DNA from: Candidatus Saccharimonadota bacterium
GTDB taxonomy: Bacteria > Patescibacteriota > Saccharimonadia > Saccharimonadales > Saccharimonadaceae
Assembly (NCBI GenBank): GCA_017506895.1
Contig: JAFWBV010000003.1
Location: 1-46,457 of the forward strand
Direction of reading: 5' to 3'
DNA: 46,457 nucleotides
The notes below the pieces were generated by a model that did not search any database, was not told where the DNA came from, and saw nothing but the letters and a program-made list of their open reading frames with translations. Below are positions 30,811 to 34,498 of the stretch, in pieces. The first letter of the stretch is position 1. The number at the start of each line of letters is the position of its first letter. The position numbers and the translations under genes are program-made.

Positions 30811-31785
30811 CTATCTTAAGTACTCATGTAGTTTTTTGGTGTCTTTGTTTTTGCGAAGCTTTGACAAAGCTTTAGCTTCGATCTGGCGAATACGCTCACG
30901 CGTAACGTCAAATTCGTTGCCAACTTCTTCTAGCGTATGTGGTCTGCCGCCGCCTATGCCAAAACGTAAACGGATGATTTTTTGTTCTCGATCAGTTAAA
31001 GTAGCAATTATTTCAGAGAGTTGTTCTTTTAGAATTTGGTTAGAAGCGGCTTCTTCAGGAGAATCACGTTCTTCGTCTTCTACAAAATCTCCAAGCACTG
31101 AATCTTCGTCATCGCCATCGCGTCCTACAGATGCATCGAGTGAAGCAATATCTTGCTTGATGCGCATGACATAATCAACTTTCTCTGGTTCCATATCAAG
31201 GGCATTAGCGATTTCTTCGTTGGTTGGTTCACGATTTAATTCGGATGTAAGTTTACGTGTAGTGCGAAGAACCTTATTGATGGTTTCAACCATGTGAACT
31301 GGGATACGAATGGTGCGGGCTTGATCAGCAATAGCTCTAGTAATGGCCTGGCGAACCCACCAAGTAGCATAAGTCGAGAATTTAAAACCTTTATCAGGGT
31401 CAAATTTTTCGACCGCACGCAACAAACCGGTGTTCCCTTCTTGTATCAAATCTAGAAAATCTAGACCACGCCCACCGTATCTTTTGGCAATTGATACAAC
31501 GAGACGCATATTAGCTTCAACCATTTTGTCTTTGGCCTTTTTGTCGCCTTTAACTATTCTTTGAGCCAAATCAGCTTCTTCTTCAGGAGTTAAAAGTGGG
31601 ATTTTGCCAATCTCACGCAAATATAGACGCACTGAGTCGTCTGCAAAGGCGTCAACATTTTCGGCCGTAATGGCTAATTCTTCATCTGTTAACTCTTCTT
31701 CATTTTCAAGGTCGCCAGATTCTGGTTCGTCAAAATCTAGTGCTAAATCTTTTGCATTCAAAATATCTTCATTTTTAGAGTTCAT
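30811..31785 (-). CDS. rpoD: Primary sigma factor (sigma-70)
   Basis: 324 aa. Region 1.2 ([21 protein letters not shown]), region 2 ([20 protein letters not shown], binds the -10), region 3 and region 4 ([18 protein letters not shown], then [20 protein letters not shown], binds the -35) are complete. The large non-conserved region between 1.2 and 2 and most of region 1.1 are missing, giving a compact factor. Directly after dnaG, as in the conserved dnaG-rpoD operon. Has its own -10 8 nt before the ATG inside the dnaG tail. Confidence 0.97.
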
Positions 31786-31793
31786 TACGTAGA

Positions 31794-31799
31794 ATTATA
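31794..31799 (-). promoter_or_regulatory. -10 of rpoD
   Basis: TATAAT on the minus strand (31794-31799), 8 nt before the rpoD ATG, ending just before the dnaG stop at 31802. Allows rpoD expression separate from dnaG. Confidence 0.5.
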
Positions 31800-31801
31800 T
31801 G

Positions 31802-33439
31802 CTATTTTTGGGTTTTTTGCAACTCGTTTATTGAATGAAGGATCTCTAAATACTCTTCGGAGTCTTCTTCTAATTCTGACAACTTATTATTTAACTCAGC
31901 AATCTTGGCTTTGGCAATTTCCTGCTGGTAAATAGCTAGTAGCTCTTTCGCTTCTTTCTCATAGTCCTGCGTACTAGATAGTTCGTGTTCAGAGTTAAAA
32001 ATTAGCTCAAGTTCAGCCAGTTTGGCGTCATCGTCTGGAATTTCAAGCGGAATTTTGGTTTTGACAATACCGCCGTATACTTTAAGGGCGAGAAGTGAAT
32101 TTTCTAGTTTTTCAAGCTTATCACTTTTGACTTTTGTTTTAGGTTTTTTAAGATAATGCTTGGGGGACTGTTCTAATTTTTTTTGCAAACGTTCGCCCTT
32201 TTCGCGTAAGGTTGCTACATCTATACCGAGTTTTTTGGCTATTTTAGTTTCATAGCTGGCACGCTCGACTTCGTCTTTTACATATTCTAAAAGTTTTAGG
32301 GCAACATCAGAATACTTGCGTTTTCCTGGTGCAGAAGAAAGATCGAGATTTTCTTCGTATTTTTGCAAAAGCCAATCTACGGCTGGTACACTATGGTTTA
32401 CGGCATCTTGCCAAAGTTTCGGGTCTTTTTGAATGAGCTCATCTGGATCCTTTGCGCCGTGATAATCTGAAATGACCGTAAGATCTATACCTAAATCACC
32501 GGCAAGCATAATGGCACGCTCGGTAGCCTTAACTCCGGCCGAATCACCGTCGTAAGCAAGTCGAATATCACTAGTAAGATTTGAAAGAATTTTAAGATGC
32601 TGTTCTGTCATAGCGGTGCCGGATGTAGCCACCGCACTCTTAACACCTGCTTGATGCGATGAAATTACATCCATATTCCCTTCCACAATAACTGCATAGC
32701 CTTCTCGCCGAATCGCTTCTTTAGCTTGAAAAAGTCCGAAAACAAATCTCGATTTATTGAACAGTAAGGTTTCTGGAGTGTTTAAATACTTCGGCTCGCC
32801 GGTCTTCAAAATGCGGGCGGTAAACCCTATCACGCTTCCAGATGTGTCGATGAAGGGCACCATCATACGATCGCGGAATAAATCAGTTTTTTTACGATTA
32901 AGGAGCCCTGCGGCTTCTAGCTCATCCAAGCTAAAGCCACGTTTTCTTAAGATATCAAGCATAGCTCTGCCACTAGCTGGAGAATAACCGATTTTAAACT
33001 CGGCAACCGTCTTACGATTTAAATTGCGTTTATAAAAAACATACTCACAGACTTTTTGGTTACGAACTAGGCAAATCTGATAAAACTTTGCTGCTAGGCT
33101 TAAGGCTTCACGGGCGCGAGCTTTTTTCTTTGAAACGGCGGGATCGCCACCTTGATATTTAGTAATGTCAACACCGGCTCTGGCAGCGAGTTTTTCGAGT
33201 GCTTCTTTAAAACTAATACCTTCAACTTCCATGATGAAAGTAAAAATATCGCCCCCTTTGTTGGCGGAAAAATCATGCCAAATACCTTTTTCTGGAGAGA
33301 CCATGAAGCTGGGAGTTTTGTCAACGCCCCATGGCGAACGACCTTTGAGACTACGACCGGCTCGTTTTAATTCTACATATTGACCCACCACATCTTCCAC
33401 GCTCAGGCGTGATTTTATCTCGTCTTTTAGGTCATTCAT
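31802..33439 (-). CDS. dnaG: DNA primase without zinc-ribbon cysteines
   Basis: 545 aa. Makes RNA primers for replication. The TOPRIM core is intact (VIVEGNMDVISSHQAGV; RLAYDGDSAGVKATERA), as are the N-terminal RNA-polymerase-like basic motifs (DRMMVPFIDTSGSVIGFTAR). In the N-terminal zinc-binding domain the spacing is kept (AGRSLKGRSPWGVDKTPSFM, then KGIWHDFSANKGGDIFTFIM), but the family's CPFH and CFGCG are SPWG and DFSANKGG: all metal ligands are gone. The C-terminal helicase-binding part is short and coiled-coil. Start lies 8 nt after a -10 shared with the divergent gene. Confidence 0.95.
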   Translation of the reverse strand: MNDLKDEIKSRLSVEDVVGQYVELKRAGRSLKGRSPWGVDKTPSFMVSPEKGIWHDFSANKGGDIFTFIMEVEGISFKEALEKLAARAGVDITKYQGGDPAVSKKKARAREALSLAAKFYQICLVRNQKVCEYVFYKRNLNRKTVAEFKIGYSPASGRAMLDILRKRGFSLDELEAAGLLNRKKTDLFRDRMMVPFIDTSGSVIGFTARILKTGEPKYLNTPETLLFNKSRFVFGLFQAKEAIRREGYAVIVEGNMDVISSHQAGVKSAVATSGTAMTEQHLKILSNLTSDIRLAYDGDSAGVKATERAIMLAGDLGIDLTVISDYHGAKDPDELIQKDPKLWQDAVNHSVPAVDWLLQKYEENLDLSSAPGKRKYSDVALKLLEYVKDEVERASYETKIAKKLGIDVATLREKGERLQKKLEQSPKHYLKKPKTKVKSDKLEKLENSLLALKVYGGIVKTKIPLEIPDDDAKLAELELIFNSEHELSSTQDYEKEAKELLAIYQQEIAKAKIAELNNKLSELEEDSEEYLEILHSINELQKTQK

Positions 33440-33443
33440 ATGC

Positions 33444-33453
33444 TATAATTATA
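33444..33453. promoter_or_regulatory. Bidirectional palindromic -10 between dnaG and the 209-aa gene
   Basis: TATAATTATA is its own reverse complement. It gives TATAAT on the plus strand (33444-33449) and on the minus strand (33448-33453). Each start codon lies exactly 8 nt beyond its -10, and only 18 bp separate the two ATGs. Confidence 0.7.
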
Positions 33454-33457
33454 TCAT

Positions 33458-34087
33458 ATGGATAGACAGGAGTATTTGGATCAAATATCAGCTGCCAATC
33501 GTCCCGTTAAAGCTGGTGGTGGGAAAGTTAAAAGTGTGCTTTCTTCAAAATTCTTTTTGGTTGGGATAATCTTTGTAGTGTTACTAGTTATAATAATTGT
33601 AATCGGTGCAATTCTTAGTGGTGGTAAAAGCGGCATAAAAGAAAAGACATATGCCTTAAATATGCATATCAGCTACGATATGAGCGTTATTGATAATTAC
33701 CAAAAATCCATCAAATCTTCAGATTTACGTTCGGATAGTGCGTCATTATATAGTGTGCTTTCGAATACAAACCGCGACCTAGAGAGCTACCTGAAAGATA
33801 CCTATGGCAACAGTGATCCGAAAGGTGCACTGAAAGAGAGTAAGCAAAATGAGCTAGCTCTAGAGAGAGATGGCCTGGAATCAGAATTATTTGAGGCAAA
33901 AATTAACGGTCTACTCGATACAATATTCGCAAGAAAATTTTCGTACGAAATATCACTGCTGCTTAATGAAGAGTATCAGATATACAGTGCCGTGAATAAT
34001 GATACCTTAAAAGGAATCATTGACACTTCTTATAATAGTCTGGAAAATTTATATAATAAGATTGATAATTTTTCGGAAGCCAAATAA
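33458..34087 (+). CDS. Single-pass membrane protein with helical outer domain, unknown
   Basis: 209 aa. A 30-residue cytoplasmic start, one membrane helix at about 31-53 (FFLVGIIFVVLLVIIIVIGAI) and a helical outside domain (ISYDMSVIDNYQKSIKSSDL, LERDGLESELFEAKINGLLD). No cysteine, no recognised family. Divergent from dnaG with a shared -10, followed after 18 nt by mscL with its own AAGGAGG-like site, so the two are probably co-transcribed. Confidence 0.65.
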   Translation: MDRQEYLDQISAANRPVKAGGGKVKSVLSSKFFLVGIIFVVLLVIIIVIGAILSGGKSGIKEKTYALNMHISYDMSVIDNYQKSIKSSDLRSDSASLYSVLSNTNRDLESYLKDTYGNSDPKGALKESKQNELALERDGLESELFEAKINGLLDTIFARKFSYEISLLLNEEYQIYSAVNNDTLKGIIDTSYNSLENLYNKIDNFSEAK

Positions 34088-34105
34088 TTATAAGGAAGGA
34101 GTTTT

Positions 34106-34498
34106 ATGGCTAAATCAGAAGAAGTTAAGAAACTTCAAGAAAAACAAGGTCTGAAAGAAGAATTTATTGAGTTCATCAATCGTGGTTCGATGATTGATCT
34201 CGCAGTGGGTGTTGCCGTAGGTGGCGCTTTTACGGCGATTGTTAATTCTCTGGTTAATGATATCGTAATGCCGATTGTAGGTTTGTTACTGGGTGGCGTT
34301 GATTTTACTGGGCTTGCCTTAAGAATTCCTAACTTTTTTGGCACGGGTGACGAAGCTGTAATTGCTTATGGTAACTTTATTCAGCATGTTGTGCAGTTCT
34401 TGGTGATTGCTTGGGTGATTTTCATGGTAATCAAGGCTATGAACAGGCTAAATCGTCGATGCGATGCGAAAAAGGCTGCAAAAGAAGCCGCTAAATAA
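34106..34498 (+). CDS. mscL: Large-conductance mechanosensitive channel
   Basis: 130 aa. Opens under membrane tension to release solutes in osmotic downshock. First helix FINRGSMIDLAVGVAVGGAFTAIV with the conserved N-R-G-x-x-x-D-L-A-V-G pattern, periplasmic loop, second helix IQHVVQFLVIAWVIFMVIKA, and a basic cytoplasmic C-terminal helix (LNRRCDAKKAAKEAAK). Normal length. A strong AAGGAAGGAG site lies 5 nt before the ATG. Convergent with the MmcQ-like gene, 17 bp between stops. Confidence 0.95.
   Translation: MAKSEEVKKLQEKQGLKEEFIEFINRGSMIDLAVGVAVGGAFTAIVNSLVNDIVMPIVGLLLGGVDFTGLALRIPNFFGTGDEAVIAYGNFIQHVVQFLVIAWVIFMVIKAMNRLNRRCDAKKAAKEAAK

Follow-up and report, generated by a model that had tools for sequence, protein, structure and literature searches.

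E. coli carries the primase gene dnaG in its macromolecular synthesis operon, rpsU-dnaG-rpoD.

Bidirectional promoters, as described by Warman, Grainger and colleagues, have a symmetric -10 that is read on both strands, and their divergent starts are 10-23 bp apart (PMC12825309, PMC10268837). They work without a good -35, and in a subset of cases they yield two mRNAs (PMC12825309, PMC10268837). In the commonest class in E. coli, the starts are 18 bp apart and the -7T and -11A positions of the two strands coincide, but the general definition allows other registers (PMC12825309, PMC10268837). Five bidirectional promoters from E. coli showed little basal competition in vitro, although one side can be repressed when the other is strongly activated (PMC12825309). 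Tightly binding, near-consensus promoters are the exception to the activity-occupancy argument of that study (PMC12825309). Leaderless genes have a TATAAT-type box about 6-9 nt before the ATG, with a TG peak in several low-GC genomes (Zheng et al. 2011, PMC3160421). We found no mention of TM7 in the text of that study that we searched, nor did we find a start-site map or a leaderless-promoter study for Saccharibacteria within the literature searched.

The window (the whole stretch of DNA that was analysed, 46,457 nucleotides) contains a dnaG gene with rpoD directly after it, as in E. coli. Unlike in the E. coli operon, there is no rpsU ahead of it: dnaG comes first in its predicted transcript, behind a putative leaderless bidirectional promoter. 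The features are:

30811 to 31785, minus strand: rpoD, the housekeeping sigma factor, 16 bp after dnaG
31802 to 33439, minus strand: dnaG, primase of 545 amino acids, recognised by Pfam
33437 to 33460: near-perfect 24-bp palindrome CATATGcTATAATTATAtCATATG, which includes both start codons and is symmetric at 22 of 24 positions
33440 to 33457: the full 18-bp intergenic gap, with transcription predicted to start at 33458 or 33456 (plus strand) and at 33439 or 33441 (minus strand)
33441 to 33442, plus strand: TG of the extended -10 (TGC-TATAAT) of the membrane-protein gene
33444 to 33449, plus strand: -10 hexamer TATAAT of the membrane-protein gene, whose ATG is 8 nt beyond
33444 to 33453, both strands: the self-complementary -10 common to both genes, TATAATTATA
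33448 to 33453, minus strand: -10 hexamer TATAAT of dnaG, whose ATG is 8 nt beyond
33455 to 33456, minus strand: TG of the extended -10 (TGA-TATAAT) of dnaG
33458 to 34087, plus strand: single-pass membrane protein of 209 amino acids with a helical-bundle domain, whose orthologues adjoin dnaG across the genus
34106 to 34498, plus strand: mscL, mechanosensitive channel, 18 bp past the membrane-protein gene

We propose that the gap is a minimal bidirectional promoter, leaderless and with consensus elements in both directions, that arose by the compaction of two leaderless promoters. We consider this very probable. On either strand, the palindrome offers an extended -10 that is perfect (TGnTATAAT), and a sigma-70-type RNA polymerase would load either way with no -35. 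In both directions, the mRNA would start at the AUG or 2 nt ahead of it and would be essentially leaderless. One transcript would carry dnaG, and probably rpoD as well; the other would carry the membrane-protein gene, and probably mscL as well. As to its origin, back-to-back leaderless promoters like those of the outgroup clade would have come to overlap, with both hexamers still at consensus. The output is most likely constitutive in both directions, rather than that of a dedicated switch between replication and the envelope.

The gap between the ATG of dnaG (33439-33437, minus strand) and the ATG of the membrane-protein gene (33458-33460, plus strand) reads ATGCTATAATTATATCAT. The two hexamers end at 33449 (plus) and 33448 (minus), exactly 8 nt from the ATG either way, and the 24-mer that includes both start codons is a complete palindrome except for one mismatched pair. 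The sequence-only reading had described the self-complementary 10-mer, the two 8-nt spacings and the 18-bp gap, and these are exact. TGn is right before the -10 on both strands, which makes each an extended -10 that needs no -35. Each box is also within 6-9 nt of its start codon, and the gap has no Shine-Dalgarno sequence for either gene, as expected of leaderless genes. A scan at the locus found no -35/-10 promoter match that covers the site, so we rejected a -35-dependent promoter there. Allowing up to one mismatch, CATN4TATAATTATAN4ATG has 1 match in the window and 0 in 100 shuffles; a looser pattern of this type has 2 matches in 233 kb of the genome and 0 in 30 shuffles.

The dnaG gap is like the Warman/Grainger promoters in that its near-symmetric -10 is usable on both strands, but unlike them it has, in each direction, a perfect TATAAT preceded by TGn. 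The register of the overlap also differs from that of the commonest E. coli class: the plus-strand -11A is at 33445 whereas the minus-strand -7T is at 33448, so there is no reciprocal coincidence. Judging from the -10 boxes and start codons, the predicted starts would be 15 bp apart at the canonical 6-nt spacing, or 19 bp apart if both are at the AUG. Also unlike those promoters, the predicted RNAs are leaderless both ways, the gap is nothing but promoter, and the arrangement is routine in one genus. The locus shares with the leaderless genes of Zheng et al. a TA-like -10 just ahead of the start codon, but here two such promoters appear to be merged in one palindrome between divergent genes. 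The differences from the known kinds are therefore the double consensus, the overlap register, the putative leaderless output both ways, and the routine use across a genus.

The DnaG protein has the Zn ribbon, catalytic core, TOPRIM, and DnaB-binding domains (Pfam). Its closest named relatives, at 88% identity, are from MAGs of Candidatus Saccharibacteria; many of the relatives are from ruminant guts, and they include Candidatus Nanosyncoccus alces at 78%. The 209-amino-acid protein did not match any family in Pfam or NCBIfam, and its gene (33458-34087) evolves fast. Its AlphaFold2 model (mean pLDDT 85) has an N-terminal membrane helix and a helical bundle, and a Foldseek search with this model gave weak, generic bundle matches (the best, to a ferritin-like protein of the YciF type, had E = 0.08). 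The first methionines of both proteins are conserved across relatives, so we rejected wrong start codons. Among 77 named relatives, rpoD is downstream of dnaG in 64 and mscL is on the divergent side in 75. Because rpoD so often follows dnaG, the dnaG arm would not be devoted to replication only. In the 16 bp that separate dnaG from rpoD (31786-31801), a TATAAT is found 8 nt ahead of the rpoD start codon, and rpoD may have a leaderless promoter of its own there. mscL has a strong Shine-Dalgarno sequence (AAGGAAGGAG at 34092-34101).

The genome assembly has 12 contigs that total 0.71 Mb, and we examined about 233 kb of it (about a third; about 39% GC). A simple ORF selection from this third gave 193 genes. 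An exact TATAAT occurs 6 nt before the first ATG of 26 of these, 7 nt before that of 9, and 8 nt before that of 7 (42 of 193 in all), and every other offset is represented by 0-3 ORFs. TGn precedes the box in 32 of the 42 genes, versus a TG background of about 5%. An SD-like site was found for just 1 of 57 leaderless-like genes, as compared to 72 of the 136 others. Across the 233 kb, TGnTATAAT-N6-8-ATG was seen 51 times versus 0.97 expected from shuffles, and in the window TGnTATAAT-N6-ATG was seen 6 times versus 0.06 expected. We take this leaderless promoter to be the genome's default for many genes. Given this default, the mRNAs of many genes at the head of operons are predicted to begin at the AUG or adjacent to it, and Shine-Dalgarno sequences to be left to internal genes such as mscL. 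The promoter-to-ATG spacing likewise suggests that leaderless translation occurs in this lineage. The predicted start points at the dnaG gap were drawn from the genome-wide spacing (the mode is 6 nt, then 7 and 8), from whose mode the 8-nt spacing at this gap differs.

To compare the locus across relatives, we used a DnaG tree of 90 species (79 named loci, the window, and 10 outgroups). We called the -10 shared if the gap did not exceed 19 bp and contained the 10-mer with no more than one mismatch, and we also counted as shared two species that have lost the membrane-protein gene; we called it overlapping if the gap was 19-23 bp. By these definitions, 53 species are shared, 3 are overlapping, 33 are split, and 1 was not scored. 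Shared species usually have 14-19 bp between the start codons. The 10-mer is exact in 47 of the 51 shared gaps that were counted, and TGn is present on both strands in every one of the 47. The spacers on the membrane-protein and dnaG sides are 8 and 8 nt in 26 species, 8 and 6 nt in 10, and 6 and 6 nt in four. Spacers of 6 nt on both sides leave a 14-bp gap, which is the shortest that still gives each promoter its standard 6-nt spacing; these species have a 20-bp unit, CATGnTATAATTATAnCATG, in which the complement of each start codon contributes the T to the extended -10 of the opposite promoter. The sequence-only reading had offered a lack of conservation of the gap as grounds for giving up the common -10. 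That objection falls away, as the gap is 14-19 bp in most close relatives, and the comparison backs a single palindromic -10 common to dnaG and the divergent gene.

Split gaps are at least 35 bp, and no gap in the 90-species sample is 24-34 bp long. Two extended -10s that do not overlap and that keep 6-nt spacing would take up roughly 30 bp, in line with this empty zone. Most genes in split species keep their own TGnTATAAT-type box 6-9 nt from the ATG, and the outgroups are split in 10 of 10 cases. The tree calls for at least about 17 changes between the short and the split state, which is an approximate number because the tree is a quick build with many weak forks. The shared -10 is common, yet it is neither single in origin nor permanent, and because about a third of the relatives lack it, sharing is not required. 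The relatives' sequences are MAGs and may contain errors, but dozens of independent assemblies agree on the pattern.

The membrane-protein gene is present in 35 of the 36 same-genus genomes searched (including the window's), and the exception is 59% complete. In two species, L150 and L152, the membrane-protein gene has been lost and the palindrome is just ahead of an mscL start codon that has GGGAAAGGA before it; mscL has a Shine-Dalgarno sequence in both, and its identity was confirmed. These deletions support the view that the plus arm serves a unit of the membrane protein and mscL.

The layout is also found between other genes. The pattern CAT-N2-6-TATAATTATA-N2-6-ATG occurs in 76 of 99 genomes of the genus, with about 205 matches (a table sum that double-counts a few through overlapping start codons) versus 4 for the reversed control, or about a 50-fold excess. 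Outside the genus the pattern is rare (12 of 252 genomes drawn from the order and 8 of 189 drawn from the phylum). Of the loci with a shared palindrome that we inspected, most have real ORFs on both sides, but a few do not. One recurrent pair, found in many relatives, encodes a protein with a LexA DNA-binding domain and a LytR-CpsA-Psr protein. Others, by the appearance of their sequences, are lepA/tilS, thymidine kinase/uracil-DNA glycosylase, and galE/sugar transferase. The dnaG gap is one case of a genus-wide architecture for many gene pairs.

The window's genome has a second shared 10-mer with an 18-bp gap (contig C7, 47034-47057; 10037/10056 in L072). It lies between the genes for a 108-amino-acid protein that has only the LexA DNA-binding domain and for a LytR-CpsA-Psr protein. 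On contig C1 of the same genome (721-738; L065), a related 12-bp palindrome, TATAATATTATA, lies in the 16-bp gap between divergent tsaB-like and tsaE-like genes; the ORF that resembles TsaB has just 110 amino acids.

Several other families of the order likewise have, divergent from dnaG, a gene whose product is about 200 amino acids long with one membrane segment; the two genes are 38-127 bp apart in most cases. A profile comparison of the genus's membrane proteins with those from the other families gave 96.7% probability (E = 4e-10, 182 columns, 15% identity), a score to which membrane-helix composition may contribute. These proteins are probably homologous. If so, the pairing with dnaG is likely to be older than the genus, and the compaction is likely to be the genus's novelty.

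Some of the gaps contain another element, a hairpin whose conserved core is about 37 nt long, GGACACACTCNAGGCCGTTCGGCC[AG]AGCTTA[CT]GGTCC, and whose arms are long, specific to the locus and nearly perfect. It is present at 1-5 copies per genome in 16 of 40 genomes of the genus, including in the dnaG/membrane-protein gap of L117 and L139, where the outer arms include both -10s, and in L220-L225 around position 1501. It also occurs in frame inside ORFs that resemble ligA, gatB, CTP synthase, and a polysaccharide gene, which is reminiscent of the in-frame palindromic elements of Rickettsia. Rfam had no match for it at the gathering threshold.

The sequence-only reading had gone further and proposed a switch that links replication to the envelope. 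In the version that we weighed, polymerase bound one way would exclude the other, dnaG (with rpoD) and the membrane protein with mscL would be reciprocally controlled, and the shared -10 would be kept for that reason. Physical exclusion at a single -10 is unavoidable, and the gene pair and the palindrome are widely conserved. However, polymerase footprints would overlap in split arrangements of 35-60 bp as well, so exclusion would not be special to sharing. Sharing also comes and goes on the tree while both arms normally keep a -10, unrelated gene pairs have the same architecture, rpoD is usually behind dnaG, and no regulator site was seen. The E. coli precedents point both ways, as bidirectional promoters compete once one direction is strongly activated, yet basal competition was little or absent in the five that were tested (PMC12825309). 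Nothing specific supports such a switch, and we think that it is unlikely. Both -10s match the full consensus and carry TGn, so polymerase could occupy them more than it does the weak E. coli promoters that were tested, and this may suffice for reciprocal exclusion. A small-genome lineage would then couple divergent pairs by polymerase orientation alone, with primase and the sigma factor set against the envelope protein and MscL. We are doubtful of this as well, but the consensus strength of the promoter, together with the exception for tightly binding promoters, is a genuine reason to test for a switch.

The palindrome might instead, or besides, be an operator for a dimeric repressor of the Fur/PerR or LexA type, given that 24 bp are nearly symmetric here and that 10 of the 51 shared gaps are perfect palindromes. 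But in longer gaps the palindrome dissolves while TGnTATAAT stays near the ATG in most species, as a promoter would; the flanking n positions vary; and the motif is found at unrelated genes and matches the generic -10 of the genome. We consider an operator very unlikely, and the split species disfavour an operator-only role in particular. It is harder still to credit a chance AT-rich sequence, with the true promoters inside the neighboring genes. Intergenic DNA is AT-rich and -10-like hexamers are common, and there is one weak -35/-10 match on the minus strand inside the membrane-protein gene, although about this much is expected in shuffled sequence. The shuffles and the reversed-pattern controls reject chance AT-richness, and the motif is conserved in about 50 species in a gap that is free of coding constraint.

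We favor the minimal bidirectional promoter. Sequence and comparison establish the motif along with its spacing, recurrence and conservation. Transcription in both directions, where it starts, co-transcription, a constitutive output and the path of evolution are inferred from these. Because relatives put the same compact layout on many unrelated gene pairs, it resembles ordinary compaction of the genome more than a special switch. The dnaG gap would then show to what extent the space between bacterial genes can be reduced: two genes without untranslated leaders, and one 10-bp element for both. As shared, overlapping, and split states occur at this one locus among close species, it offers a natural experiment on coupling versus neutral compaction. 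The architecture would also make the prediction of start codons and promoters straightforward in a genus that is hard to culture.
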